Shown: positions 8,561-51,596 of the stretch, piece after piece
How the letters are laid out: every line of letters starts with the position of its first letter
How positions within the stretch are numbered: position 1 is the stretch's first letter
Source: Geobacteraceae bacterium
GTDB taxonomy: Bacteria > Desulfobacterota > Desulfuromonadia > Geobacterales > DSM-12255
Direction: 5' to 3'
Length of the DNA: 64,000 nucleotides
Assembly: GCA_013377075.1 (NCBI GenBank)
Contig: JACABD010000013.1
Location: 6,462-70,461, forward strand
The notes under the pieces: model-generated
Seen by the model: the letters and a program-made list of their open reading frames with translations, nothing else
The model's database searches: none
What the model was told of the DNA's origin: nothing
Position numbers and translations under genes: made by a program

Positions 8561-9217
8561 TCAGATCAGCTCAATAACTGCTTTAACGCACTTCTCAATC
8601 CCTGCTGCTGCTTCACCGATTGAGCCGGCAAGCATGTAGGCCGGAGTTGAGACGATTTTGTTCTTCTTGTCGATGATAAATTCTTTGACGGGACAGTTGA
8701 CATGGCTGCTGCCGGTGGCATTGATGGCCGCTGCCGTCCCTTCATCTGTGCCGATCGTTACTTCTGGTGCGAACTCCTTGCCAAGGGTGGCGGCAATCAG
8801 GGCAGGTGCGATGCAGATTGCGCCGACAGGTTTCTTTGCTGCTATCATCTCTTTGAGGAGCCTTGCAACTTCAGGTTGAACAGAGGCCCCAGCCCCTTTG
8901 AAAGCAAAATCACAGAGGTTCTTTGCCGCACCGAATCCGCCGGGGAAGATTATGGCGTCAAGATCAGCAGCCGTGACTTTGGCAATATCAGTTATCTTCC
9001 CCCTGGCGATCCGTGCCGATTCAACAAGGACATTTCTCTTTGCGCCGGTAGGCTGGCCTGTTAGATGATCTACTTCGGCCAGTTCCATGTCAGGTGCCAT
9101 ACAGATGGCCTCTGCACCGTTTTTGTCGATTTCCAGCAGGGTCAGCACGGCCTCATGGATTTCACTGCCATCGTAGACTCCGCATCCTGAAAGAACAACC
9201 CCGATCTTTTTTCCCAT
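8561..9217 (-). CDS. elbB: Isoprenoid biosynthesis glyoxalase ElbB (DJ-1/PfpI superfamily)
   Basis: MGKKIGVVLSGCGVYDGSEIHEAVLTLLEIDKNGAEAICMAPD... typical of ElbB. Confidence 0.92.
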   Translation of the reverse strand: MGKKIGVVLSGCGVYDGSEIHEAVLTLLEIDKNGAEAICMAPDMELAEVDHLTGQPTGAKRNVLVESARIARGKITDIAKVTAADLDAIIFPGGFGAAKNLCDFAFKGAGASVQPEVARLLKEMIAAKKPVGAICIAPALIAATLGKEFAPEVTIGTDEGTAAAINATGSSHVNCPVKEFIIDKKNKIVSTPAYMLAGSIGEAAAGIEKCVKAVIELI

Positions 9218-9234
9218 TGTCTGCGACCTCCGGA

Positions 9235-9825
9235 TTATTTTAAGTAAAGCACTGCAACGGCTTTAGCTCTCTCATTCCCCAGGGAGATGTAGCCGTGGGA
9301 TTCAGATGAATCATAGTAGATGCTGTCGCCTGGTTTCAAAACCATTGTCTCAGAACCGTAGTGAAACTCAAGTTCGCCGGAGAGCATATAGATAAACTCC
9401 TCACCTTCATGCTTGTAGAGAAGGGAGTCGTTCCATTCGCCATCTTCGAACTCGATGAGGAAAGGCTCCATTGACTTGTGGCGCATGCCCGGAGCAAGCG
9501 TGTGGTAGAGGTAGTTCTGGGGAGAGTCGTTGCCAGCCCTTCTGCGGCTTGATTTATGGTTGTCGCTTCGCAATAGCACAAATTTCTGCCGATCTTCCTC
9601 TTCTTCAAAGAAGAAATGTATACCGACTTTGAGCCCTTTTGCAATTTTCAGTAGTGTTGCAATCGGCGGAATGACTTGATCATTTTCGATCTGCGAAAGA
9701 AGTGGTTTTGAAAGCCCTGACAGATCGGAAAGATCCTGTAGAGTGAGTCGTTCCTCTTTCCTCAGTTTCCTGATTTTCTGTCCGATATTGAGTTCTTTGA
9801 CGTCAGGGTGATTGCTCATATTCAT
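9235..9825 (-). CDS. XRE-family HTH regulator with C-terminal cupin domain
   Basis: HTH (LRKEERLTLQDLSDLSGLSKPLLSQIEN) plus cupin (EGEEFIYMLSGELEFHYGSETMVLKPGDSIYYDSSESHGY). Start assigned at MNMSNHPDV, which has an RBS; the ORF track start is longer. Confidence 0.88.
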   Translation of the reverse strand: MNMSNHPDVKELNIGQKIRKLRKEERLTLQDLSDLSGLSKPLLSQIENDQVIPPIATLLKIAKGLKVGIHFFFEEEEDRQKFVLLRSDNHKSSRRRAGNDSPQNYLYHTLAPGMRHKSMEPFLIEFEDGEWNDSLLYKHEGEEFIYMLSGELEFHYGSETMVLKPGDSIYYDSSESHGYISLGNERAKAVAVLYLK

Positions 9826-9982
9826 TTTTCTCCTAGGCGCTTTATATTCCAAAGCTGAGAAAGGGTCAACAGAGTTTTGCAAGTAGCTTTTTGGCTGGTA
9901 AATGCCTTGACATTGCAGGAGGCAGTGGCATAACATTCTAAATTTAACAGCTTGGGGAAAGTCGCAGGTTTTTGGAGGGAGT

Positions 9983-10810
9983 TTGAGCTGGAAAGCCATT
10001 GGTATATTCGATTCAGGCGTTGGCGGGTTAACCGTGCTGCGGGAGATCATCAAGACCCTGCCCCAGGAGGATACGGTCTACCTTGGGGATACCGCCCGTG
10101 TTCCCTACGGCACAAAGTCACCTGAAACTGTTGTCCGCTTTGCCAGGCAGATTACCTCTTTTCTGGTGAGCCGCGATATAAAGCTGCTGGTGGTCGCCTG
10201 CAATACTGCCTCTGCCGTTTCACTTGATGAGCTGAAAGCCGAGTTTCCGATTCCGATTGTCGGTGTTATTGAGCCTGGTGCGGCCCAGGCCGCGAAAGTT
10301 ACCAGAAGCGGCAGGGTCGGTGTCATCGGCACTGCCGGGACAATCCGGAGCAGCGCCTATACAAAGGCGATTAAGAAGATAAATCCGGATATCGAGGTTA
10401 TTACCGCCGAGTGCCCGATGTTCGTGCCGCTTGTTGAAGAGGGGTGGACTGATAATGAAGTTGCAAGACTTACCGCAGGCATTTATCTGAAAAAACTTAA
10501 AGAGAGCTCAGTTGATACCCTGGTGCTTGGCTGCACCCACTATCCTTTGCTTAAGGGTATAATCAGCGAGGTTATGGGGGATGGTGTTACTCTTGTCGAT
10601 TCGGCAGAGGAGACAGCACGGGTCGTCAGGGAGATCCTTGCTGAAAAGGGAGAAACACGGCCGGTTGAAGAGAAGGGGAATCATCACTTTTTCGTCACAG
10701 ATGTGCCAGCAGGTTTTGTCCGAGTTGGCAACCGTTTCCTGGGTGGTGCCCTTGGTGATGTCTACCAGGTGGATCTTGAAAAAGAACTCCTGCAAGGGGG
10801 TAGGGTATGA
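9983..10810 (+). CDS. murI: Glutamate racemase
   Basis: IGIFDSGVGGLTVLREI, VVACNTASA, LGCTHYPLL; TTG start. Confidence 0.95.
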   Translation: MSWKAIGIFDSGVGGLTVLREIIKTLPQEDTVYLGDTARVPYGTKSPETVVRFARQITSFLVSRDIKLLVVACNTASAVSLDELKAEFPIPIVGVIEPGAAQAAKVTRSGRVGVIGTAGTIRSSAYTKAIKKINPDIEVITAECPMFVPLVEEGWTDNEVARLTAGIYLKKLKESSVDTLVLGCTHYPLLKGIISEVMGDGVTLVDSAEETARVVREILAEKGETRPVEEKGNHHFFVTDVPAGFVRVGNRFLGGALGDVYQVDLEKELLQGGRV

Positions 10811-35365: not shown

Positions 35366-36541
35366 ATGAAAATTCTTCTTATTGCACCGCAGCCGTTTCT
35401 GGAAAAACGTGGGACTCCACTGGCTGTCCTGCAGCTGCTTAAGGCCTTTAGCGAACTTGGTCATCAGGTTGATCTTGTCAGTTATCATCTTGGCGAAGAT
35501 GTGGATCTGCCAGGTATGCGGCACTGCCGGGCGCTTCGCATTCCATTTATAAATAGTGTTGCCAAGGGGATGTCTGCTACCAAGCTGTTTCTGGATATTT
35601 TCATTTTTCTGCGTGCATTAGGTCTGTTGCTTTCCAACCGCTATGACTCAGTTCATGGAGTGGAAGAGGGTGCAATAATGGGTGGCGTGTTGACCCTTTT
35701 CTGGCGTACTCCGCTTGTCTACGACATGGACTCAAGCATTCCCGAGCAGTTGGAAGAGTCTGGTAACAGGCTTTGGGGTGGTAGTGTCATGGTGGGGGTG
35801 GCAACTCTTCTTGAACGCTGGACAATAAACCGTGCTGCCGTAGTTCTCCCAGTGTGCAGTTCTCTGGCGGAAAGGGTTCGCAGGGTTTCGCCAGCCAAAC
35901 CGTTACAACTCCTTGAAGATATTCCCAATGTTGAAGAGTTTGCTGCCGGTCAGCTAAAGGAACTGGAACGACTGCGCCAGGAGCTGGGGCTTTTTGGCAG
36001 GAAAATAGTTCTCTATACCGGCACATTCGAAGGCTATCAGGGAATTGACCTGCTGCTTGATGCAATTCCAATGGTTGTTAAAAGCTTTCCGGATACAGTT
36101 TTTGTTCTTGTTGGCGGCGAACCAGCCCAGGTAGAGGAGAAAAAAGCTGTTGTCGTCAGTCTTGGGGTGGCTGCAAATGTGATGATTCTTGGGAAAAGGC
36201 CACTTGAAGAGATGCCGCTCTTTATGGAGATGGCTGATATTCTTGTTTCGCCCCGCAACAAGGGGACAAACACGCCGATGAAGATCTACACCTACCTTCA
36301 GTCAGGAAGACCGGTTGTGGCAACCCGCCTCCCTACCCATACACAGGTGTTGACAGATGAGAACTCTGTGCTGGTTGAGCCTGTTGCCAAGGAGTTTGCC
36401 AATGGTGTTGTGCGTCTTCTGGCGGAGCCGGAGATTGGCCTATCACTGGGCAAGGCCGGTGCACAGCTTGTGAAGGATAACTACAGTTTTGACGGTTTCA
36501 GGAATAAAGTGGAGGGGGCATACCGCCAGATCCAGTCATGA
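35366..36541 (+). CDS. Glycosyltransferase group 1 (GT4)
   Basis: MKILLIAPQPFLEKRGTPLAV...ILVSPRNKGTNTPMKIYTYLQSGRPVVAT. Confidence 0.9.
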   Translation: MKILLIAPQPFLEKRGTPLAVLQLLKAFSELGHQVDLVSYHLGEDVDLPGMRHCRALRIPFINSVAKGMSATKLFLDIFIFLRALGLLLSNRYDSVHGVEEGAIMGGVLTLFWRTPLVYDMDSSIPEQLEESGNRLWGGSVMVGVATLLERWTINRAAVVLPVCSSLAERVRRVSPAKPLQLLEDIPNVEEFAAGQLKELERLRQELGLFGRKIVLYTGTFEGYQGIDLLLDAIPMVVKSFPDTVFVLVGGEPAQVEEKKAVVVSLGVAANVMILGKRPLEEMPLFMEMADILVSPRNKGTNTPMKIYTYLQSGRPVVATRLPTHTQVLTDENSVLVEPVAKEFANGVVRLLAEPEIGLSLGKAGAQLVKDNYSFDGFRNKVEGAYRQIQS

Positions 36542-37626
36542 TAAGAAAAATTCGTCAGACCATAAATGTACTTAAATTTGCACTTGGCAGCACCAGACCG
36601 TCTGCCGGACCGCTCAAGGTGCAGTGGGATATCCTTTACCGCTGCAATTCCAAATGCATAACCTGTGATCGCTGGATGGAGGTGGAGGGGAGAACAATCA
36701 TCCCCTTTGAAAGGGAAAAGCAGTTTCTCTCCGAGCTGGCTGATATGGGAACTTTCAGTGTGGCCTTCTCCGGCGGCGAGCCGTTTCTGCGCAAGGATAT
36801 CTTTGAGCTGATAAAAGAGGCTAAGCGGGTTGGGTTGACGACCAGCCTGAACAGCAATGGTCTGCTAATCAACGAAAAAATGGCGGACAGAATCATCGAC
36901 TCCGGTCTGGACATGATCTACTTCTCTCTTGATGGTGCAAAACCTGAAACAAATGATTATATCCGCGGAGTTCCGGGGGGCTTTGCCAAGACCTTTCAGG
37001 CTGTGCGGCTGCTCCGGGAAAAGCGTAGCGCAAAACCGAAGATCTTTATCAACTGCACGGTCAACAACATGAACGTCGGTGAGATTGTGGATCTGGCGCG
37101 GCTCTGCCGGGAGGCAAAGGTGGATGGTGTCACCATGCAGCCTGCACATAGCTGCGAAGGGATGGAATTTGCCATTCCCGAGGAGCTTAAACTTGGGGAG
37201 GCCAGTATTCCGGTTTTTCAGCAGCAGCTTGCAGTGCTGCTGAACGAGTACCGTGACATGTTCCCGATGATGGACGATTATTTTGCCCAGTTCGGGCAGT
37301 TTATCTCAAACCCCCAGGTTCTATACAAGTATCGCTGTGTGGCAGCCTACACCAGTGTTCAGATCCATCCGAACGGTGATATTTACTCCTGCCCGGTTGC
37401 TTTCGAGAAAATCGGCAACCTGATGGATGCCCCTTTCAAGGATATTTGGTTTTCCCCCAAGGCCGATGAATTGAGGGAAAAGATCAAAAACGGCCAGCAT
37501 CCCATGTGCTGGTTCACCTGTGTGGCACCGGCAAACATATTCCTCTCCTATCTCCACCCCTTCAGGCTCTACAAGCTCTTTCGACCGGAGATGCTCCGGC
37601 ATATACTTTTTAAAATGGGTGGTTAG
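36538..37626 (+). CDS. Radical SAM protein with SPASM-like C-terminus
   Basis: CNSKCITC (CX3CX2C), FSGGEPFLR, downstream Cys-rich YSCPVAF...CWFTCVA. Confidence 0.9.
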   Translation: MIRKIRQTINVLKFALGSTRPSAGPLKVQWDILYRCNSKCITCDRWMEVEGRTIIPFEREKQFLSELADMGTFSVAFSGGEPFLRKDIFELIKEAKRVGLTTSLNSNGLLINEKMADRIIDSGLDMIYFSLDGAKPETNDYIRGVPGGFAKTFQAVRLLREKRSAKPKIFINCTVNNMNVGEIVDLARLCREAKVDGVTMQPAHSCEGMEFAIPEELKLGEASIPVFQQQLAVLLNEYRDMFPMMDDYFAQFGQFISNPQVLYKYRCVAAYTSVQIHPNGDIYSCPVAFEKIGNLMDAPFKDIWFSPKADELREKIKNGQHPMCWFTCVAPANIFLSYLHPFRLYKLFRPEMLRHILFKMGG

Positions 37627-38292: not shown

Positions 38293-39060
38293 ATGAAAGT
38301 AGTAATACTTGCAGGGGGGCTTGGGACAAGGCTCAGCGAAGAGACAATTTTGAGGCCAAAGCCGATGGTGGAAATCGGTGGCAAGCCTATTCTCTGGCAT
38401 ATCATGAAGATTTACTCCCATTATGGGTTCAATGATTTTGTCATCTGTCTCGGCTTCAAGGGGTACATGATCAAAGAGTACTTTTCCAACTACTTCCTCC
38501 ATATGAGTGATGTCACCTTTGATATGTCAACTAACAGCATGGAAGTGCATCAGAAGAATGCTGAGCCGTGGCGTGTTACTCTTGTAGATACCGGGGCCGA
38601 ATCAATGACCGGTGGTCGGGTGAAGCGTGTTGCTCCTTATATTGACGATACTTTTATGCTGACCTACGGTGATGGAGTATCGGATGTGAACATCGCGGCA
38701 CTTGCAGAGTTTCACAGGAAGCATGGCAAGGAGGCTACAGTCACCTCAGTCCAGCCTTCAGGCCGATTCGGAGCGCTCAATATGGATCATAACGGTACTG
38801 TGCTCTCGTTTCTGGAGAAACCGGCTGGAGATGGATCATGGATCAATGGTGGGTTCTTTGTGTTGGAGCCAACAGTCCTTGAACGACTGAGCGGAGACGG
38901 CACCATATTCGAGAAAGAACCACTGGAAGGGCTTGCCAGGGATGGCCAGCTGCGTGCATACAAGCACGATGGTTTTTGGCAGCCGATGGACACTCTCAGG
39001 GATAAGACCCATCTGGAAGAGCTCTGGGACAGCGGCTCTGCTCCTTGGAAACTCTGGTAA
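38293..39060 (+). CDS. rfbF: Glucose-1-phosphate cytidylyltransferase
   Basis: MKVVILAGGLGTRLSEETILRPKPMVEIGGKPILWHIMKIYSHYG. Confidence 0.96.
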   Translation: MKVVILAGGLGTRLSEETILRPKPMVEIGGKPILWHIMKIYSHYGFNDFVICLGFKGYMIKEYFSNYFLHMSDVTFDMSTNSMEVHQKNAEPWRVTLVDTGAESMTGGRVKRVAPYIDDTFMLTYGDGVSDVNIAALAEFHRKHGKEATVTSVQPSGRFGALNMDHNGTVLSFLEKPAGDGSWINGGFFVLEPTVLERLSGDGTIFEKEPLEGLARDGQLRAYKHDGFWQPMDTLRDKTHLEELWDSGSAPWKLW

Positions 39061-40130
39061 TGGAAGTTTCTTTCTGGCAAGGGAAAAAAGTCTTTCTCAC
39101 CGGGCACACAGGTTTCAAGGGGAGCTGGCTCTCCATCTGGCTTCACAGTCTTGGCGCGCAGGTAACCGGCTATGCCCTTGCCCCCCCTACAGAGCCGAGC
39201 CTATATGTCCAGGCGAAAGTTGATGAGCTTCTAACCTCGGTAATAGCGGATGTACGCGATCTTGACCGCTTGAAAAACGAGATGCAGAAGGCATCTCCCG
39301 ACATTGTCATCCACATGGCCGCCCAGCCCCTTGTACGGGACTCATACAAGATTCCGGTCGATACCTATGCAATCAATATCATGGGCACTGTTCATCTGCT
39401 GGAGGCAGTTCGTTCGACACCATCAGTAAGAGCAGTTGTTAATGTCACCACTGACAAGGTCTACGAAAACCGTGAATGGGTCTGGGGATACCGTGAGAAC
39501 GAGCCATTTGGCGGCTATGATCCTTACTCCAATAGCAAAGGGTGTTCAGAGCTGGTGACTGCCGCATACCGTTCATCCTACTTCAATCCGAAAGATTATG
39601 AGCGTCATGGTGTTGCTTTGGCTTCCGCCCGGGCAGGAAACGTCATCGGTGGAGGCGACTGGGCCAATGACCGGCTGATCCCGGATGTCATTCGGGCTAT
39701 CCTTGCAAAAGAGCTGGTGCAGATTCGCAATCCAAATGCAATACGTCCCTGGCAGCATGTTCTTGAGCCTCTTTCAGGCTACATGCTTTTGGCGCAGCGT
39801 CTCTTTGAGGATGGTCCAGATTTCGCCGAGGGGTGGAACTTCGGCCCGGCAGATGAGGATGCAAAACCTGTAGAGTGGCTGGTCGCGCTGCTTTGTGGAG
39901 AGTGGGGAGACGGTGCATGTTATGAGATCGACAAGGGTGAGCACCCCCATGAAGCCCATTATTTAAAGCTTGATTGCTCCAAAGCCAGAATGCGCTTGGG
40001 GTGGCAGGCGAAATGGGGTCTGGATATGGCGCTTGAGAGTATCATTGACTGGACAAAGATTTATACAAACGGTGGCGATCTGCGAAGAGAGTGTCTGAGA
40101 CAGATCGGAGCGTACGGAGATGCAAGATGA
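39060..40130 (+). CDS. rfbG: CDP-glucose 4,6-dehydratase
   Basis: GHTGFKGSWLSIWLHSLGAQVTGYAL; YSNSKGCSELVTAAYRSSYF. Confidence 0.96.
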   Translation: MEVSFWQGKKVFLTGHTGFKGSWLSIWLHSLGAQVTGYALAPPTEPSLYVQAKVDELLTSVIADVRDLDRLKNEMQKASPDIVIHMAAQPLVRDSYKIPVDTYAINIMGTVHLLEAVRSTPSVRAVVNVTTDKVYENREWVWGYRENEPFGGYDPYSNSKGCSELVTAAYRSSYFNPKDYERHGVALASARAGNVIGGGDWANDRLIPDVIRAILAKELVQIRNPNAIRPWQHVLEPLSGYMLLAQRLFEDGPDFAEGWNFGPADEDAKPVEWLVALLCGEWGDGACYEIDKGEHPHEAHYLKLDCSKARMRLGWQAKWGLDMALESIIDWTKIYTNGGDLRRECLRQIGAYGDAR

Positions 40131-41479
40131 AGGCTAGTCCTGAAAGAGAAAAAGAGCTGCGCCAGACAGCAATAGACGCGGCAATTGCCTACTACAGAGA
40201 GTGTCATGCTCCAAAGAGCGAGTTTCGAGACGGAGACCGCATTCCTTATGCAGCGCGTGTTTTCAATGAAATCGAAATCAGCAATCTTATAGATTCCTCC
40301 CTTGATTTCTGGCTCACCACAGGGCGCTATGCCGAGAAGTTCGAACGGGAATTTGCCGATTTTCTTGGCGTACAGCACTGCTCACTCACCAACTCCGGTT
40401 CATCCGCCAACCTGCTTGCTTTCATGGCTCTAACCTCATCCAAACTTGGCGAGAGAAGAATAAAACCTGGAGATGAAGTAATCACCGTTGCCGCCGGCTT
40501 CCCGACAACCGTTGCCCCGATAATTCAGTACGGTGCAGTCCCGGTATTTATTGACGTATCATTACCCACATACAACCTTGATGTGACACAACTGGAAGCA
40601 GCTCTTTCTCAAAGAACCAGAGCAGTTATGGTCGCTCATACCCTAGGCAACCCCTTTGACCTTGAAGCGGTAAAGGCATTCTGCGACAAGCACGATCTCT
40701 GGCTTGTCGAGGATAACTGTGACGCTCTGGGCTCCCGTTATCTTTATAAGGGGGCATGGCAGTACACCGGCACAGTCGGTCATATCGGTACCTCTAGCTT
40801 CTACCCTCCACATCATATGACAATGGGGGAGGGCGGGGCAGTCTATACGGACGATCCGATGTTGAAGCGCCTCATAGAATCTTTCCGTGACTGGGGGCGT
40901 GACTGTTGGTGCCCATCAGGAAAAGACAACAGTTGCAGTAACCGATTTGGTCAGCAGTTCGGAGAGTTACCATTTGGCTATGATCATAAATATGTCTACT
41001 CCCACTTTGGCTACAACCTGAAAGTCACCGATATGCAGGCAGCAATAGGCTGTGCTCAACTGGAGAAGCTTCCGGCATTTATAGAAACGCGCAGGGAAAA
41101 CTGGCAATATTTACGTGACGGTTTAAGTGAACTTTCTAGCGCGTTCATCCTTCCGGATGCGACAGAAAATTCAGACCCATCCTGGTTCGGGTTTATGTTG
41201 ACAGTAAATGGCGGCACAGGTTTAAAGAGAGATAAAATTGTTAACTTCCTTGAGAGTAAAGGGATACAGACAAGAATGCTCTTTGCAGGTAACTTGATCA
41301 AGCACCCCTGTTTTGATGAGATGAGAAAGAGCGGTAAAGGATACAGGGTTGTTGGTGATCTGAAAAATACCGACAGGATCATGAACGATACTTTCTGGGT
41401 CGGGGTTTATCCTGGGATGAGTGAAGAGATGCTGGAGTTTATGGTAAGGCAGATAGCCGGATTTTGCCAGTCAGCATAA
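40127..41479 (+). CDS. rfbH: CDP-6-deoxy-D-xylo-4-hexulose-3-dehydrase (E1; PMP/[2Fe-2S])
   Basis: SSFYPPHHMTMGEGGA (His replacing the PLP Lys) and Cys-containing DWGRDCWCPSGKDNSCSNRFGQQ. Confidence 0.96.
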   Translation: MKASPEREKELRQTAIDAAIAYYRECHAPKSEFRDGDRIPYAARVFNEIEISNLIDSSLDFWLTTGRYAEKFEREFADFLGVQHCSLTNSGSSANLLAFMALTSSKLGERRIKPGDEVITVAAGFPTTVAPIIQYGAVPVFIDVSLPTYNLDVTQLEAALSQRTRAVMVAHTLGNPFDLEAVKAFCDKHDLWLVEDNCDALGSRYLYKGAWQYTGTVGHIGTSSFYPPHHMTMGEGGAVYTDDPMLKRLIESFRDWGRDCWCPSGKDNSCSNRFGQQFGELPFGYDHKYVYSHFGYNLKVTDMQAAIGCAQLEKLPAFIETRRENWQYLRDGLSELSSAFILPDATENSDPSWFGFMLTVNGGTGLKRDKIVNFLESKGIQTRMLFAGNLIKHPCFDEMRKSGKGYRVVGDLKNTDRIMNDTFWVGVYPGMSEEMLEFMVRQIAGFCQSA

Positions 41480-41521
41480 GTCGGAGAAATTAGGTCTGAT
41501 AACAGTTTTGGAGGCGTCTTT

Positions 41522-43309
41522 ATGAAAATGAGGGTAGCTGATTATATAGTAGACCGGTTGTACAGAGCTGGTGCAGAGCACTCCTTCTTGATAACCGGTG
41601 GGATGATTATGCATCTTACAGATGCACTGCTTCAGCATGGAAAACAGAAGTTCATCTGTTGTCATCATGAACAGTCTGCAACTATGGCTGCGGAGGCATA
41701 TGGCCGATATACCAATAAGCTGGGAGTTGCTTATGTTACTGCCGGTCCTGCTGCACTTAACACCCTGACCGGGGTCGTCGGTGCTTTTGTCGACAGGGCT
41801 CCTTGTATTATTGTTGCCGGCCAGTCAAAAGTATCTCAAGCAAAAGTGACCAAACCCAGGCAGTTTGCATTGCAGGGATTTAACACGTTGCCGATTTTCG
41901 AGAAAGTGACAAAATATGCGGTGATGCTGGATGATGTTGCTACTGTAAAATACGAAGTAGAGAAGTGTATTCATATCGCAATGTCTCATCCGGTTGGCCC
42001 GGTCTGGATTGAGTGCCCGATCGATATTCAGGGGGCCAGTTTTGATCCGGATGATTATGAAGGGTATCTACCGCCGCTTGAAAATGTTAACGCGTTGGCT
42101 AAATTAGAAGCGAAAGCCGAGGTTGTGGCGCAGGCAATCAAATCCAGTAAAAGACCTTTCTTTCTTTTGGGCGCAGGAGTTCGTCTTGCAGACGCTGTTG
42201 AAAAAACCAGACAGCTGATTGAATCTATCAGAGTGCCTGTGCTGACTTCACGTCTGGGTATGGATCTGATTGAACACGAAAGCCAATTTTACGTCGGCAG
42301 GCCTGGTACTTATGGTGACCGTGCTGCCAATTTCACAATCCAGAATGCTGATTTGATGATCGTTTTGGGGTGTCGTCTGAGCGTCGGCCTTATCGGCTAT
42401 GATTATAAGAACTTTGCCCCCCACGCGAAGAAGATTGTAGTCGATATTGATCCTCTTGAACTGGATAAACCATCCATTGTTCCAGATATCGCTATTTGCG
42501 GGGATGTAGGGGTTTTTGTCGAACTGCTTACAAAAAAGCTTTATGGGTTTGTCATGCAGAACAGCCAATGGTTGGCCAAAACTCAGGAGTGGAAGCACAC
42601 CTATCCGGTTGATCTCCCTGAATATGCAGACGAAAAAGAGGGGATAAACTCCTACCACTTCATGACACTGTTTTCCGAAAAAATGTCAGAAAATGCTCTT
42701 TTCGTCCTTGATACAGGCTCCTGTTTTCATGTTCATGCTCAGGCTTTTCGGGTAAAGCCGGGGCAGCGACATATAATAACCGGCGGCCTTTCAACCATGG
42801 GGTACATGCCGGGAGCTATCGGAGTGGCGGCGGCGAGTCGTGGGCAGGATGTGTACTGTGTCACAGGCGATGGCTCGATCCAGATGAATCTTCAGGAACT
42901 GGAGACCATTGCTCACAACAAGTTACCGGTAAAAATTGTGATTCTTAACAACAATGGTTACCTTTTGATAAGGCATTCACAGAATAATTTCATGGAAGGT
43001 AGACTCATTGGTGAGAGTTCGGCAACAGGGGTCAGTTTTCCTGACATGGAAAAGATATCCGCTGCTTATGGCATTCCATTTGTCCGGATTTCTGCCCTCG
43101 GGGAACTAAATGAGAAACTTGAAATTGTAAAAAATCATGTGGGTCCATTGATCTGCGAGGTCATCACACCGCAAAACCAGCTTTTGATCCCACGGGTCGC
43201 TTCAAAAGCTCTGCCAGATGGTTCCATGGTGTCAATGCCCTATGATGACATGTTTCCGTTCCTTTCGCGCGAAGAGTATGAAGCGAATTGTGTCCATGAT
43301 AAGCTGTAA
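41522..43309 (+). CDS. TPP-dependent acetolactate-synthase-like carboligase (YerE-like)
   Basis: HHEQSATMAAEAYGR, GPAALNTLTGVVGAF, and TPP motif GDGSIQMNLQELETIAHNKLPVKIVILNNNG. Confidence 0.85.
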   Translation: MKMRVADYIVDRLYRAGAEHSFLITGGMIMHLTDALLQHGKQKFICCHHEQSATMAAEAYGRYTNKLGVAYVTAGPAALNTLTGVVGAFVDRAPCIIVAGQSKVSQAKVTKPRQFALQGFNTLPIFEKVTKYAVMLDDVATVKYEVEKCIHIAMSHPVGPVWIECPIDIQGASFDPDDYEGYLPPLENVNALAKLEAKAEVVAQAIKSSKRPFFLLGAGVRLADAVEKTRQLIESIRVPVLTSRLGMDLIEHESQFYVGRPGTYGDRAANFTIQNADLMIVLGCRLSVGLIGYDYKNFAPHAKKIVVDIDPLELDKPSIVPDIAICGDVGVFVELLTKKLYGFVMQNSQWLAKTQEWKHTYPVDLPEYADEKEGINSYHFMTLFSEKMSENALFVLDTGSCFHVHAQAFRVKPGQRHIITGGLSTMGYMPGAIGVAAASRGQDVYCVTGDGSIQMNLQELETIAHNKLPVKIVILNNNGYLLIRHSQNNFMEGRLIGESSATGVSFPDMEKISAAYGIPFVRISALGELNEKLEIVKNHVGPLICEVITPQNQLLIPRVASKALPDGSMVSMPYDDMFPFLSREEYEANCVHDKL

Positions 43310-43328
43310 CTGGTGACATCTTCCGGAG

Positions 43329-44213
43329 GTGGTTATGAGTAAGATAAAGGTTGCAATTTTGGGGAGTGGGAACATCGGAACGGATCTGTTGTATAAGGTG
43401 CTGCGTTCAGAGTATCTGGAATGTTCACTTTTCATTGGCCGTAATCTGTCTTCCAAAGGCATGTCCAGAGCCGTCAGTCTGGGTGTTCCAGTTTCGGATC
43501 AAGGAATCCAGGCGATACAGAACAGGCCGGACTGCTGCGACATTGTGTTCGATTGTACTTCGGCCATGAGTCACAAGATACACGCAGCAATTTTGAACGA
43601 CCTGAATATCACGGCTATTGATCTGACACCTGCCAAGCTTGGCCCATTCTGTATTCCGGCAATAAATCTTGATGCCTGCAAGAGTGACAAGAATATCAAT
43701 ATGATAACCTGTGGAGGCCAGGCTTCTATTCCGCTTGCCCATGTGATCGGGCAGACGCAGAAAGAGGTAGATTATATTGAGGTTGTTTCGACGATCGCTT
43801 CAAAAAGTGCCGGTCCTGCGACCAGACTTAACCTGGATGAATATATCGAGACCACCGAAAAAGGGGTCAAAATGTTTTCCGGGTGCAAGAGGTCCAAGGC
43901 GATCCTGAACCTGAATCCTGCAGAACCCTGCATAGACATGCAGACAACCGTTTATGCCCAGGTAAGGAAACCTGATATGGAGGCACTTAAAAAAGGTGTC
44001 GACGAGATGGTGGCGAAGATTCAGAAGTATGTGCCAAGTTACCTGTTGGTAGTTCCGCCTACTTATGAAAACAACAGGATCATCATGACTGTAAGGGTTA
44101 AGGGGCTTGGAGATTTTTTGCCAAGTTATGCCGGTAATCTTGATATTATCAACTGTGCAGCTATTGCCGTTGCGGAAGAGTATGCCAAATCACTTCTGGA
44201 AAAGAGGGGTTGA
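43329..44213 (+). CDS. Acetaldehyde dehydrogenase (acylating), DmpF/MhpF family
   Basis: VAILGSGNIGTDLLYKVLRS; catalytic-Cys region NMITCGGQASIPLAHVIGQ. Confidence 0.92.
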   Translation: MVMSKIKVAILGSGNIGTDLLYKVLRSEYLECSLFIGRNLSSKGMSRAVSLGVPVSDQGIQAIQNRPDCCDIVFDCTSAMSHKIHAAILNDLNITAIDLTPAKLGPFCIPAINLDACKSDKNINMITCGGQASIPLAHVIGQTQKEVDYIEVVSTIASKSAGPATRLNLDEYIETTEKGVKMFSGCKRSKAILNLNPAEPCIDMQTTVYAQVRKPDMEALKKGVDEMVAKIQKYVPSYLLVVPPTYENNRIIMTVRVKGLGDFLPSYAGNLDIINCAAIAVAEEYAKSLLEKRG

Positions 44214-44214
44214 T

Positions 44215-45234
44215 ATGAAAAAAGTTATCATAAGTGATGCCACGTTGCGTGACGGATCCCATGCGATTTCTCATCAGCTGACAAAAGCTCAGATCACTAA
44301 ATATGCACAGGCTGCTGATAAGGCTGGCCTGCCTATCGTCGAAGTAGGCCATGGCAACGGGCTTGGTGCCTCGTCGCTTCAAGTCGGACTAAGTCTTCTT
44401 GACGATCGTGAAATGCTGGAGACTGCCCGTGCAAGCCTTACCAGATCAAAGCTGGGAATACATATTATCCCCGGTTTTGCCACCATAAATAATGATCTGA
44501 AGTTTGCTTTTGATTATGGCGTAGATGTCGTTCGGGTTGCGAGTCACTGTACTGAGGCTGATATCACAGAACGACATATAAGTTACACCAGGGAGCAGGG
44601 GAGAGAGGCCTATGGTGTGCTCATGATGAGCCATATGGCATCTCGTGAGGTGTTGCTTGATGAGGGGCTAAAGATGCAGTCCTATGGCGCTGAAGCGCTG
44701 ATTATCATGGACTCTGCAGGTGCATACCTGCCGACTGATGTTCAGGACAGAATAAGCCACCTTGTCGCAAACCTGAATATCCCGGTCGGGTTTCATGCCC
44801 ACAATAACCTGGGAATGGGGATAGCTAATTCAATTACCGCTGTTGAAGCCGGTGCCCAGATTATTGATGGCGCTTCAAGGGGGTTTGGTGCTGGTGCCGG
44901 GAATGCTCAACTGGAGGTTCTGGTTGCTGTGTTTGAAAAACTTGGGTTTAGCACAGGGATAGATCTATACAAGATGCTTGACGCTGCAGATATTGTCGAA
45001 AAAGAGATTATGCAGTCTACTCCCTGCGTTACAAGTGTAAGCCTTGTCAGTGGCCTTTCGGGTGTTTTTTCAGGTTTTGCTAAACACGTTTCGCTTGCTG
45101 CCAAAGAGTACGGAGTTGATCCGCGGGATATATTTTTTGAACTTGGCAGGAGAAAAGTTGTTGGCGGGCAGGAAGACAAAATTGTGGAAGTGGCCTTGGA
45201 GTTGCGCGAAAAAACAGAAGCGAGGACAAAATGA
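44215..45234 (+). CDS. 4-hydroxy-2-oxovalerate aldolase, DmpG/MhpE family
   Basis: ISDATLRDGSHAISHQ, VGHGNGLGASSLQ, GFHAHNNLGMGIANS, DGASRGFGAGAGNAQLEVLVAV. Confidence 0.94.
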   Translation: MKKVIISDATLRDGSHAISHQLTKAQITKYAQAADKAGLPIVEVGHGNGLGASSLQVGLSLLDDREMLETARASLTRSKLGIHIIPGFATINNDLKFAFDYGVDVVRVASHCTEADITERHISYTREQGREAYGVLMMSHMASREVLLDEGLKMQSYGAEALIIMDSAGAYLPTDVQDRISHLVANLNIPVGFHAHNNLGMGIANSITAVEAGAQIIDGASRGFGAGAGNAQLEVLVAVFEKLGFSTGIDLYKMLDAADIVEKEIMQSTPCVTSVSLVSGLSGVFSGFAKHVSLAAKEYGVDPRDIFFELGRRKVVGGQEDKIVEVALELREKTEARTK

Positions 45235-46271
45235 GATCACATCTGACTGATTTGATTAGAAGAGACTGCGAGGAGATATGCCCGTCGGCAGTTACCCTGT
45301 TGCAGGAGATAAAGAACCAGAAACTATATATTACCGGTGGGACAGGTTTTGTCGGTACATGGATAGCAGAACTTGTGACATGTCTGAACGATAAACACGG
45401 CTTTAATACAGGCCTTGTACTAGTCGCCCGTGATACCGATAGCTTCAGGGAAAGAGCTCCTCATATTGCTTCACGCAAGGACATTCAACTGGTATCGGCA
45501 GATGTCAGGAGGACGCTTGAGATTCCGGATGATGTGAGTTATCTGCTGCATCTGGCCGCATCTCCTGACAACCGGCAGCATGTGTCGAACCCTATCGTTA
45601 CAATGGAGACCATAACCGGAGGTACAGGAAATGTCCTGGATTCTGCCAGCAAACTTGCATCTCTTAAAAAGATACTGGTGGCGAGCTCAGGTCAGGTGTA
45701 TGGCAAACAGGGAAATGCAAAAATATCGGAAAATATGCCGGGCACTTTGAACAGTAATTCGATTACGTCAGTCTATCCAGAAGCAAAAAGATACGCAGAA
45801 ACCCTCTGCTGTGCCTACTGGAGCTCTTGCAAGCTTCCGGTTGTAATCGCCCGCCCTTTTTCCTTTATCGGTCCTTATCAGGGGCTTGACAAACCATGGG
45901 CGATAAACAATTTCATACGTGATGCATTGATGGACAATCCAGTGCGCATCATCGGTAATGGTATGCCGGTGCGGAGCTATATGTACCCCAGTGATATGGC
46001 TCTTTGGTTCCTTCGGATACTTACAAGTGGAACTGCTGGACTTGCTTACAACGTCGGTAGCCCTTCCGGCATTTCTCTTAAGGATGTCGCGGAAAAAGTG
46101 ATGCAATATTTCGGTGCTGCTGCGGATGTCATTATTAAAAACATGAATGATGATTTTTCCGCGTTTGTGCCGGACGATACGTTTTGCAGGGAAAGTCTTA
46201 ATCTCTCTGTCACTGTGCCGATTGACACTGCACTTAGACGCTCTCTTGAATGGTACAGGTCTTTGGAGTAA
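45231..46271 (+). CDS. NAD-dependent epimerase/dehydratase (extended SDR)
   Basis: LYITGGTGFVGTWIAELV; YPEAKRYAETLCCAY; ATGA overlap with the aldolase gene. Confidence 0.88.
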   Translation: MRSHLTDLIRRDCEEICPSAVTLLQEIKNQKLYITGGTGFVGTWIAELVTCLNDKHGFNTGLVLVARDTDSFRERAPHIASRKDIQLVSADVRRTLEIPDDVSYLLHLAASPDNRQHVSNPIVTMETITGGTGNVLDSASKLASLKKILVASSGQVYGKQGNAKISENMPGTLNSNSITSVYPEAKRYAETLCCAYWSSCKLPVVIARPFSFIGPYQGLDKPWAINNFIRDALMDNPVRIIGNGMPVRSYMYPSDMALWFLRILTSGTAGLAYNVGSPSGISLKDVAEKVMQYFGAAADVIIKNMNDDFSAFVPDDTFCRESLNLSVTVPIDTALRRSLEWYRSLE

Positions 46272-46277
46272 GTCAAA

Positions 46278-47201
46278 ATGCGTGTAGCCATACTCGGAGC
46301 GACAAGCCACATTGCCAAGAGTTTGATTCTAGAGTTTCACAAAACTGGAGAATGCGAACTATACTTATTCGCGCGTTCCTTGAATTCGGTTCAATCCTTT
46401 TTGGAATCAATTGGTGCGGCTAATAGTTTATTGATAAAAATTAAATCGTTCAGCGAATTTTCTGATAATGACTATGAAGCTGTCATTAATTGCGTTGGAA
46501 TTGGAAACAAGGCAACGCTAGCAAACGAATTTTCATCTATTTTTAATATAACAGAAATGTTTGATGACCTTGTTTTGACCTACTTGCAAAAACATCAACA
46601 AACTTATTATATCAATTTTAGCAGTGGGGCTGCCTACGGTGTTGATTTTTCAGTGCCTGTTGATGTGACAAGTCAGTCAAAATTCAATTTAAATTCAATT
46701 GCTGACAGTGAATATTACGGTATTGCCAAAATCAATTCTGAAGCAAAGCACCGCGTGTTTAAGCAGCTTAATATAATAGACCTAAGAGTGTTTGGTTATT
46801 TCAGCCGGTTTATTGATCTAAATGATAAGTATTTGTTAAGTGATATCATCAATTGTTTGAAAAATAACTTGGTGTTTGTTACTGGCCCAGGAACTATAGT
46901 TCGAGATTTTGTCCATCCGCAGGATCTTTTCAGCTTAATCAAGGCTTGTCTAAAGGTAAACCAGATCAATGATGTTTTTGATGTTTACAGCGCAAGGCCT
47001 GCCACCAAATTTGAGATAATTGACCACTTTGTTCTTCATCACGGATTGAAATATTCCGTGGAGACTTCGTATGTGGCTCTTAATGTTACTGGAGCAAAAG
47101 ATTGTTATTATTCAAATAATTTTAAAGCGTCTTCTATAGGTTATGAACCAAAGTTTTCCTCAATGGATGGAATTAAAGAAGAAATTAAATTTTTGTTGTA
47201 A
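46278..47201 (+). CDS. NAD(P)-dependent SDR/epimerase-like protein
   Basis: MRVAILGATSHIAKSLI nucleotide-binding start; YYGIAKINSEAKHR. Confidence 0.75.
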   Translation: MRVAILGATSHIAKSLILEFHKTGECELYLFARSLNSVQSFLESIGAANSLLIKIKSFSEFSDNDYEAVINCVGIGNKATLANEFSSIFNITEMFDDLVLTYLQKHQQTYYINFSSGAAYGVDFSVPVDVTSQSKFNLNSIADSEYYGIAKINSEAKHRVFKQLNIIDLRVFGYFSRFIDLNDKYLLSDIINCLKNNLVFVTGPGTIVRDFVHPQDLFSLIKACLKVNQINDVFDVYSARPATKFEIIDHFVLHHGLKYSVETSYVALNVTGAKDCYYSNNFKASSIGYEPKFSSMDGIKEEIKFLL

Positions 47202-47352: not shown

Positions 47353-48504
47353 ATGTACAGTATTAAGAGATTGAGTCAAAAACTAAAGAAAAAACTGTTG
47401 CTTGCAATGGTTGTCTCTGAAAACCTAGCTTCAGACAAAAATTATAAAATTGAATTGGTTAGGAAAGGTTTTGCTGATCGGAAGGTCTGTTACGACGATT
47501 CTAAAACTGTTGAAAGAATTATTGAAGCTTACAATAAAGCTAAGCAAATCCAGTTAAAATCCGCGCCAGAGTACCAAGTTAGCAATGAATGGCTACCGCT
47601 CTATAGGCAATTCATGGGTGGAATAATGGATTCTCTGGCAACACGCAATGTTGACAGGGCTAAAGAAATTTACAATAATTTTATGCGTGAACCCTGCAGC
47701 GTAGGTTTACACGGACTTCCTGTTGATATGTTTAAACATTATTTCGGGAGTGATATAACTCGCACTTATAAGAGACTTTTCCTCTCCGATACGTTGCATC
47801 GTTATAATCTTTGGCTTAGCTTGGTCGGCCAGACCAACAAAGTTAATGACCTTGAGTCCCCACTAATCGGCAATCCATATGGATATTACTTTGATGGCGT
47901 CTTTGTGAAGGCAGGCTCAGACTATCTGCATTATTACGCAACGATAATAGGGAGATTGATCCGCAGTAATAACCAAAAAGTTGTTATGGAGTTGGGTGGC
48001 GGTTATGGCGGAATGGCATATTATTTAATGCGTGACAATGCAGACCTAACTTATGTTGATTTTGATCTTCCTGAAAATCTGGCACTTACTTCGTACTATC
48101 TCTTAACCGCATTTCCTGATAAAAAAATCGCTCTGTATGGTGAATTAGATTTGTCGTCAAGCAATATCAAAGACTATGATGCAGTGCTTTTGCCGAATTT
48201 CGAGATTGAAACAATGCAAAACAATAGTGTTGACCTGATTTTTAATTCATACAGTCTTGCGGAGATGTCTCGTGAAACAATTGTAAATTATGTTTCTCAC
48301 TTTAATCGAATAGCCGATAAATTTATCTTTCATGTAAATCACAACCGTGACAGCCTAGTGAAAGCTGATGAATTTAATATAGATCAAGGTAAGTTTGAAC
48401 TTTTGTACAGGGCTCCGGCACTTTGGAATAAGGGCCGTAATATTGATATGGATGAATTTGAGTATCTCTACAAAAGCAAAAAACTGGCCTTTAATGCCAT
48501 TTAA
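47353..48504 (+). CDS. Putative sugar O-methyltransferase
   Basis: SAM-binding MELGGGYGGMAYYLM...LTYVDFDLPENLALTSYYL...DLIFNSYSLAEMS. Confidence 0.8.
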   Translation: MYSIKRLSQKLKKKLLLAMVVSENLASDKNYKIELVRKGFADRKVCYDDSKTVERIIEAYNKAKQIQLKSAPEYQVSNEWLPLYRQFMGGIMDSLATRNVDRAKEIYNNFMREPCSVGLHGLPVDMFKHYFGSDITRTYKRLFLSDTLHRYNLWLSLVGQTNKVNDLESPLIGNPYGYYFDGVFVKAGSDYLHYYATIIGRLIRSNNQKVVMELGGGYGGMAYYLMRDNADLTYVDFDLPENLALTSYYLLTAFPDKKIALYGELDLSSSNIKDYDAVLLPNFEIETMQNNSVDLIFNSYSLAEMSRETIVNYVSHFNRIADKFIFHVNHNRDSLVKADEFNIDQGKFELLYRAPALWNKGRNIDMDEFEYLYKSKKLAFNAI

Positions 48505-50021: not shown

Positions 50022-51596
50022 ATGAAAATCTTAATAGTAGCCCCCAAATTTGATATATTCCCGGTTGGATTAGCATACATAGCATCTTCGCTCAAACAGG
50101 CTGGGCATGAGGCGCTTTTATATGTTTTTACTAATGAGCAAAAAATGTTGGCTGAGCTAAGTAAAGCTAATTTTGATTTTGTTGCAACCGGGGGATTATC
50201 ATCACAATATCTCGATATTAAGAAAATTCTTTTTACCGCACGTAAATCCGGCATCAAAACAATTGCTGGTGGCGGAATAATTACTTCCGAGCCTGAATTA
50301 ATGCTAAGGGCTTTATGTCCTGACTTTGGTGTAATCGGGGAGGGGGAAGAGACAATTGTAGAATTCCTCCAGGCATTTGAAATGGGGCGAGAACTATCTG
50401 CGGTCAAAGGCATTTGTTATATAGATAACGACAAGTTTGTAGTCACTGAGAATAGAAAACAACTAGAGGAACTAGATACGCTTCCTTGGCCCGATTATGA
50501 TGGTTTTGGCTATAGCCAGTTTCTCGATTCAATGAAATCTTCAGATTCATATAGTTACGACCTCTTCGATTATCCTAGAGAATACCCGGTAATCACATCA
50601 AGATCATGCCCCTTTCAATGCACCTTTTGCTACCATCCTTCAGGGGATAAATACAGGCAGCGTTCAATGGATTCAATAATGGATGAGCTTATGACGGTTA
50701 TCCCCAAATATAAAATTAACATAGTTGCAATTTATGATGAGCTATTTTCGTTTGATGAGGCAAGAGTGTATGAATTTTGTGAAAAATTCAGAAAATTTAC
50801 TGACTCGTTGGACTGGGATGTGCGTTGGTCCTGTCAGATGCGCGTTGCAGGTTTAAAAGATTCGATGCTAGACGCAATGAAGGCTGCTGGTTGCTATTTA
50901 GTGAGTTATGGTTTTGAAAGTTATAATGCTGAAGTGCTAAATAGCATGAAAAAACACATTACGCCTGAGCAGATTCATAATGCTGTACATGCGACAATAG
51001 ATAGAAATATTTCAATTCAGGCTAATTTCATTTTCGGAGATCCCAAGGAAACTTGGGCGACCGCACTGCAAACGCTTACATTCTGGAAGGAGCATATTGA
51101 AGCGGGAATTTTGCTTTCGTTTATTCTTGCTTTTCCTGATAGTCCAATATATCAATTTTGCCAAAAAAAAGGGCTAATAAATAACAAGTTACACTATATT
51201 GAACATGATCTTTATAAAGTACTAAATATGACGGCTATGTCAGATCATGAATTCAGTAAATTAACTGTAATGGTTCAAAAGCATACTCTCAAATATTGCA
51301 ATTATGTAGTTCCTTTTGACCGAACAAGTAGTTCAGTAAGCGCAGTTTGCCCTCATTGCAATGTGTCTATTCAGTATAACAACTATTATACAAGCAACTA
51401 TAGATATACAAGAATGATGTATTGCCGGTCTTGTCGTAAGCGATTTTTTATTGCCAACAGATTATCGATGGTTATTATGAAAGTTAAATATTTTCTATTA
51501 TCACCCTTGTTCATGAAGTTATATGAGCGTGTACAGAAGCCTATGGCATTTATAAAAAAGCAAATTTTTAAATTCATACCTCTTTCTGACAGATAA
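50022..51596 (+). CDS. B12-binding-domain radical SAM protein with C-terminal zinc-ribbon-like motif
   Basis: VGLAYIASSLKQAGHEALLY, SCPFQCTFCYHPSG (CX3CX2C), and C-terminal CPHC...CRSC. Confidence 0.85.
   Translation: MKILIVAPKFDIFPVGLAYIASSLKQAGHEALLYVFTNEQKMLAELSKANFDFVATGGLSSQYLDIKKILFTARKSGIKTIAGGGIITSEPELMLRALCPDFGVIGEGEETIVEFLQAFEMGRELSAVKGICYIDNDKFVVTENRKQLEELDTLPWPDYDGFGYSQFLDSMKSSDSYSYDLFDYPREYPVITSRSCPFQCTFCYHPSGDKYRQRSMDSIMDELMTVIPKYKINIVAIYDELFSFDEARVYEFCEKFRKFTDSLDWDVRWSCQMRVAGLKDSMLDAMKAAGCYLVSYGFESYNAEVLNSMKKHITPEQIHNAVHATIDRNISIQANFIFGDPKETWATALQTLTFWKEHIEAGILLSFILAFPDSPIYQFCQKKGLINNKLHYIEHDLYKVLNMTAMSDHEFSKLTVMVQKHTLKYCNYVVPFDRTSSSVSAVCPHCNVSIQYNNYYTSNYRYTRMMYCRSCRKRFFIANRLSMVIMKVKYFLLSPLFMKLYERVQKPMAFIKKQIFKFIPLSDR

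Follow-up and report, generated by a model that had tools for sequence, protein, structure and literature searches.

A packed run of genes at 38293–47201 of the window, a 64,000-nucleotide stretch of contig JACABD010000013.1 from a Geobacteraceae bacterium (assembly GCA_013377075.1), is very probably a cassette for an erwiniose-type cytidine diphosphate (CDP)-3,6-dideoxyhexose that would carry a four-carbon branch at C4 and serve a surface polysaccharide. RfbF, RfbG and RfbH would supply CDP-4-keto-3,6-dideoxyglucose, while an acylating dehydrogenase would convert acetyl-coenzyme A (acetyl-CoA) to acetaldehyde and an aldolase would join acetaldehyde to pyruvate to give 4-hydroxy-2-oxopentanoate. 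A thiamine diphosphate (TPP) carboligase would then decarboxylate this 2-oxo acid and place the 3-hydroxybutanoyl unit on C4 of the sugar, and a short-chain dehydrogenase/reductase (SDR) would reduce the new ketone to leave a 1,3-dihydroxybutyl branch. The chemistry of RfbFGH, the coupling by the carboligase ErwE (with a substrate analogue) and the reversibility of the aldolase BphI are established in named relatives; for the present organism we infer the substrates (acyl donor and aldehyde), the direction and the sugar product from the genes present, their conserved residues and co-occurrence, and the phylogenetic trees.

The coupling step has a precedent in Pectobacterium atrosepticum, whose ErwE, according to a review, joins a hydroxy-functionalised 2-oxo acid to CDP-4-keto-3,6-dideoxyglucose to form erwiniose, the coupling having been demonstrated in vitro using a substrate analogue (PMC12247030). 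The same review states that ErwE refuses pyruvate and accepts 4-hydroxy-2-oxobutanoate, -pentanoate and -hexanoate, and it cites an in silico survey of more than 200 YerE-like enzymes (PMC12247030). An earlier reading of this DNA, made from its letters alone (hereafter the sequence-only reading), had proposed the donor route above and knew of no assigned enzymology for the coupling. This point is corrected by ErwE, an assignment that supports the proposed route and at the same time removes most of its claimed novelty. The key enzyme type is already known from a plant pathogen, and the cassette is here widened to many bacterial phyla and archaea. With the ErwE/erwiniose system the window would share the CDP-4-keto-3,6-dideoxyglucose acceptor, the 4-hydroxy-2-oxo acid donor and the four-carbon branch, as judged by genomic context. 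The primary study of ErwE is reportedly Steitz 2022.

Distribution of the gene set

A scan with the TPP protein of one genome per species recovered 17 loci at 61–76% identity, and in all 17 the dehydrogenase, the aldolase and SDR1 (the first of two SDRs in the window's run) lie beside the TPP gene. A search of 395 Desulfobacterota genomes for the aldolase family reached an 18th cassette (L034) independently of the TPP gene: a DmpG-type aldolase exceeded the cut-off in three of the 395, and both strong matches were cassette copies (the window and L034). The TPP–dehydrogenase–aldolase–SDR1 set is complete in 18 of 18 other loci, which argues that the combination in the window is not due to chance. 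rfbF, rfbG and rfbH are all nearby in 16 of these 18, and these 16 are all the loci with contigs of sufficient length; the contigs of the remaining two (L020 and L029) measure 6.5 and 4.4 kb. Seven loci have a divergent rfbG relative; in all six that were tested the best family was CDP-glucose 4,6-dehydratase, at scores under its cut-off. The sequence-only reading had named, as a finding that would count against it, a trio of TPP enzyme, dehydrogenase and aldolase that occurs mostly apart from rfbFGH; the survey runs the other way, the co-occurrence being strict in distant genomes.

By their record labels the carriers belong to Desulfuromonadales, Myxococcota, Nitrospirota, Cyanobacteria, Actinomycetota, Bacillota, Planctomycetota, Verrucomicrobiota, Campylobacterota and archaea, with Geomonas limicola Red745, Sulfurospirillum cavolei UCH003 and an Oscillatoriales cyanobacterium as named hosts. 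The archaeal carriers (L017, L018, L020 and L028) are metagenome-assembled and are placed by bin label in Methanoregulaceae, Methanomicrobiales and Methanoperedens; the aldolase and TPP proteins of L017 and L018 are identical. The aldolase is single-copy in the window genome and in 13 of 14 carrier genomes overall, and the remaining genome has two cassettes and two aldolases. Two cassettes of unlike gene order, each with its aldolase, were seen at L019 and L027 within one Deltaproteobacteria/Myxococcota bin (G064). At L014 a second, diverged TPP gene (8894–10332; pieces about 43% identical) follows the cassette and is itself followed by an SDR1-like gene.

The TPP carboligase

The TPP enzyme belongs to the acetolactate-synthase superfamily, yet it falls under the cut-off of every acetolactate-synthase model among the matches listed. 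Against the PDB it scored 408 bits over 587 residues with 8rph (JanthE), 234 bits with 5ahk, which we take to be PpYerE, and at most 220 bits with acetolactate synthases, so that by these scores it is closer to YerE-like enzymes than to acetolactate synthases. A plasmid collection searched with the same protein gave matches at the acetolactate-synthase level only. In the TPP tree the cassette enzymes form one clade (100/100), and PpYerE groups with loci that have rfbFGH and a TPP gene without the trio.

JanthE, the nearest solved structure, takes 4-hydroxy-2-oxovalerate with benzaldehyde, and pyruvate too. The window enzyme retains the catalytic Glu50 and has GDG where JanthE has CDG, and it carries Leu117, Gly289 and Arg558 in place of the Val, Pro and Lys of JanthE; these differences at the JanthE hot spots are clear, and insufficient alone to tell the donor.

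The aldolase and its predicted stereochemistry

The dehydrogenase and aldolase share family, metal and catalytic residues and gene pairing with DmpF–DmpG and BphJ–BphI. The catalytic Cys128 of the dehydrogenase is kept in all 19 cassettes, and R12, D13, H16 and the two metal histidines H194 and H196 are intact in the window aldolase. The window pair differs in its proposed synthetic direction and in two substitutions of the aldolase, Tyr290 to Phe and Leu87 to His (BphI numbering). A tree with 32 catabolic-type control sequences (drawn mainly from Actinobacteria and plasmids, together with those of two solved structures) split these controls 100/100 from a clade of the 19 cassette aldolases and seven others from plasmids. 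Phe occupies position 290 in all 19 cassette aldolases and in none of the 32 catabolic ones (Fisher's exact p = 2e-14, a descriptive value only, as the sequences are related and not independent). At position 87 the cassette aldolases have His (15), Leu (two) or Phe (two); the Leu87–Tyr290 pair is found in 31 of the 32 catabolic sequences, and the window aldolase has His–Phe. An FAH-type hydratase, the catabolic partner, was absent from the window genome beyond a 57-amino-acid fragment, and none was found in two archaeal carrier genomes.

These results support two proposals of the sequence-only reading: that the dehydrogenase and aldolase would run in the synthetic direction and feed the TPP enzyme, as suggested by one aldolase per cassette, the missing hydratase and the position of the aldolase outside the catabolic clade, and that the TPP enzyme would use a 4-hydroxy-2-oxo acid in place of pyruvate, as suggested by its separation from PpYerE and by ErwE.

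According to reviews of engineered BphI, the wild-type enzyme yields solely (4S)-4-hydroxy-2-oxopentanoate, the Y290F variant loses stereocontrol and has mixed selectivity, and the L87N/Y290F and L87W/Y290F variants have their selectivity flipped to 4R (PMC3962088, PMC4012138, PMC3962226). The natural His–Phe pair resembles these engineered pairs, in which a polar or bulky residue at 87 is combined with Phe at 290, and on this likeness the cassette aldolases are predicted to make the donor as (4R)-4-hydroxy-2-oxopentanoate. The prediction is weakened by the absence of His at 87 from the variants described in the BphI reviews, by the mixed selectivity of Y290F on its own, and by the presence of Phe at 290 in some relatives outside sugar loci. 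The stereochemistry of erwiniose was not found in open text, where caryophyllose alone is named; erwiniose is 3,6,8-trideoxy-4-C-[(R)-1-hydroxyethyl]-D-gulo-octose, a name that open text did not confirm, and its R configuration at C7 would fit.

The seven non-cassette aldolases of the non-catabolic clade (L035, L036, L037, L038, L039, L076 and L077) lie outside sugar loci. Most have a dehydrogenase partner, and some adjoin aminotransferases, non-ribosomal peptide synthetase genes or acyl carrier genes (Streptomyces, Leisingera and Phaeobacter plasmids). Their role is perhaps to supply 4-hydroxy-2-oxo acids to amino-acid or natural-product synthesis.

Alternative donors and points against the assignment

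If the dehydrogenase and aldolase used another acyl-CoA or aldehyde, such as propionyl-CoA or propionaldehyde, the branch would exceed four carbons. Propionaldehyde is also a good substrate in the BphI work under review (PMC3962088), 4-hydroxy-2-oxohexanoate is among the acids that ErwE accepts (PMC12247030), and the chain-length-limiting Leu89 of BphI is Ile in the window aldolase. However, Ile is not smaller than Leu, so that a widening of the pocket is not clear, and the nearest characterised families are, by name and score, acetaldehyde enzymes; a longer branch is therefore considered unlikely.

The yersiniose pathway of YerE and YerF, to which PpYerE belongs, uses the same RfbFGH, a TPP carboligase and an SDR reductase. 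It differs from the window in its pyruvate donor (PMC12247030), its two-carbon branch, its lack of aldolase and dehydrogenase, and its TPP clade. It might be supposed that the window enzyme likewise adds a two-carbon unit from pyruvate while the dehydrogenase and aldolase serve elsewhere, given that trio-less loci occur in the same family and order (L082 and L085), with rfbFGH, the TPP gene and, directly after it, SDR2 in a yersiniose-like arrangement, and that SDR2 is also present in the window. Yet the window enzyme sits in another clade than PpYerE and the loci of this type, the aldolase would be purposeless in 19 of 19 cassettes, and the ErwE precedent excludes pyruvate (PMC12247030). On these grounds a pyruvate donor was considered and rejected as quite improbable.

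A catabolic pair that breaks down 4-hydroxy-2-oxopentanoate beside merely adjacent sugar genes, a notion that draws on family names derived from meta-cleavage pathways, was likewise rejected as scarcely credible in view of the missing hydratase, the single aldolase copy, Phe for the catabolic Tyr in all cassettes, the 100/100 split from the catabolic clade and the strict linkage to sugar genes.

Several points weigh against the erwiniose-type assignment itself. The likeness of the window TPP enzyme to ErwE is one of proposed function and genomic context. An RfbI-type reductase (E3), the partner of RfbH (E1), was not found in the 95%-complete genome (G000), in which FAD_binding_6 has a single match, adjoining a sulfhydrogenase/sulfite-reductase-like subunit; an unrelated reductase may stand in for RfbI. 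And two SDRs are present in the run, though the pathway calls for one reduction.

RfbH has His-His where the pyridoxal phosphate lysine would stand, together with a cysteine cluster, features that we take to be the signature of an iron-sulfur 3-dehydratase of the AscC/E1 kind. Both SDRs have YxxxK, and SDR1 has SSGQVYG at the position of the TDEVYG-type motif of 4,6-dehydratases; its lack of a TDE-type motif is consistent with a reductase. SDR1 occurs in every cassette and SDR2 in the window, in six others and in the yersiniose-like L082 and L085, a distribution by which either may be the branch-ketone reductase. The proposed reduction of the branch ketone by an SDR has two candidates in place of one.

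Donor modules in related loci

YerE-like TPP loci were also seen with an adjoining NeuB-type synthase (L080, L081, L104, L107, L109, L110, L111, L113 and L114), with an HMGL-like aldolase (L078 and L079) and with an HpcH/HpaI-type aldolase (L103); an obvious donor module was not seen at L105, L106, L108, L112 and L115–L117. The loci with these modules lie in the phylum and have them in place of the aldolase–dehydrogenase pair, many with rfbFGH nearby, and the TPP phylogeny follows the donor module in part. Enzymes of the NeuB, HMGL-like and HpcH/HpaI families condense an aldehyde with pyruvate or phosphoenolpyruvate, and their products are 3-deoxy-2-oxo acids, the type of donor favoured by ErwE.

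The related rfbFGH–TPP loci suggest that the donor module is exchangeable, an idea that amounts to a lead short of proof, since NeuB genes in loci of this kind may also act in the synthesis of nonulosonic acids. It is tentatively proposed, with confidence falling somewhat short of even, that the cassette aldolases constitute, within the BphI/DmpG family, a branch with natural (4R) selectivity, and that in YerE-like systems an exchangeable module next to the TPP gene (aldolase–dehydrogenase, HMGL-like, HpcH/HpaI or NeuB-type) determines how long the sugar branch is and how it is patterned. What is new here is the stereochemical prediction for the cassette aldolases and the wider donor-module rule that these loci suggest.

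The cassette would represent a near-complete gene set, donor supply included, for four-carbon-branched deoxysugars, with named isolates among its carriers, and would carry a chemistry known in a few bacteria into many environmental phyla and the archaea. Candidate enzymes from nature for (4R)-4-hydroxy-2-oxo acids emerge from the residue pattern; BphI acquired this selectivity through engineering. The donor-module rule, if true, would make sugar branches predictable from genomes.

Coordinates and surrounding locus

Start sites were refined for rfbG (39060), rfbH (40127) and the aldolase (ATG at 44215, the mechanical TTG start at 44107 being dropped). Neighbouring genes in the run overlap by a few bases or are separated by gaps of at most 42 bases, all on the + strand, and the run is therefore tight and co-directional. 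The family models (with RfbF, RfbG and RfbH all above their cut-offs) and the coordinates confirm the packed order rfbF–rfbG–rfbH–TPP–dehydrogenase–aldolase–SDR given in the sequence-only reading. Its extent holds as far as 46271 and omits the second SDR, which starts six bases after SDR1 and extends the run to 47201.

Table 1. Genes and key codons of the proposed branched-sugar cassette, in window coordinates.
Feature	Position	Strand	Support
rfbF, glucose-1-phosphate cytidylyltransferase	38293..39060	+	TIGR02623 452 bits, cut-off 300
rfbG, CDP-glucose 4,6-dehydratase	39060..40130	+	TIGR02622 504 bits, cut-off 278
rfbH, CDP-6-deoxy-hexulose 3-dehydratase (E1)	40127..41479	+	NF011936 748 bits, cut-off 423
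YerE/ErwE-like TPP carboligase (proposed donor 4-hydroxy-2-oxopentanoate)	41522..43309	+	best PDB match JanthE 8rph; own clade 100/100
Acylating acetaldehyde dehydrogenase (BphJ/DmpF type), proposed acetyl-CoA to acetaldehyde	43329..44213	+	TIGR03215 393 bits, cut-off 282
4-Hydroxy-2-oxovalerate aldolase (DmpG/BphI type), proposed acetaldehyde + pyruvate	44215..45234	+	TIGR03217 406 bits, cut-off 286
Aldolase His83 codon (= BphI Leu87)	44461..44463	+	alignment to DmpG 1nvm
Aldolase Phe285 codon (= BphI Tyr290)	45067..45069	+	Phe in 19/19 cassette aldolases, 0/32 catabolic clade
SDR1, extended SDR, candidate branch-ketone reductase	45231..46271	+	adjoins trio in 18/18 other loci; YxxxK
SDR2, alternative candidate branch-ketone reductase, YerF-like by context	46278..47201	+	in 6 other cassette loci

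The run is flanked by a sugar O-methyltransferase of the NanM family (47353–48504), and other neighbours include glycosyltransferases, a hexapeptide-repeat transferase and a GDP-mannose 4,6-dehydratase family protein; the neighbourhood has the look of a surface-polysaccharide locus. A radical SAM/SPASM protein (36538–37626) and a B12-binding radical SAM protein (50022–51596) also lie within this locus.

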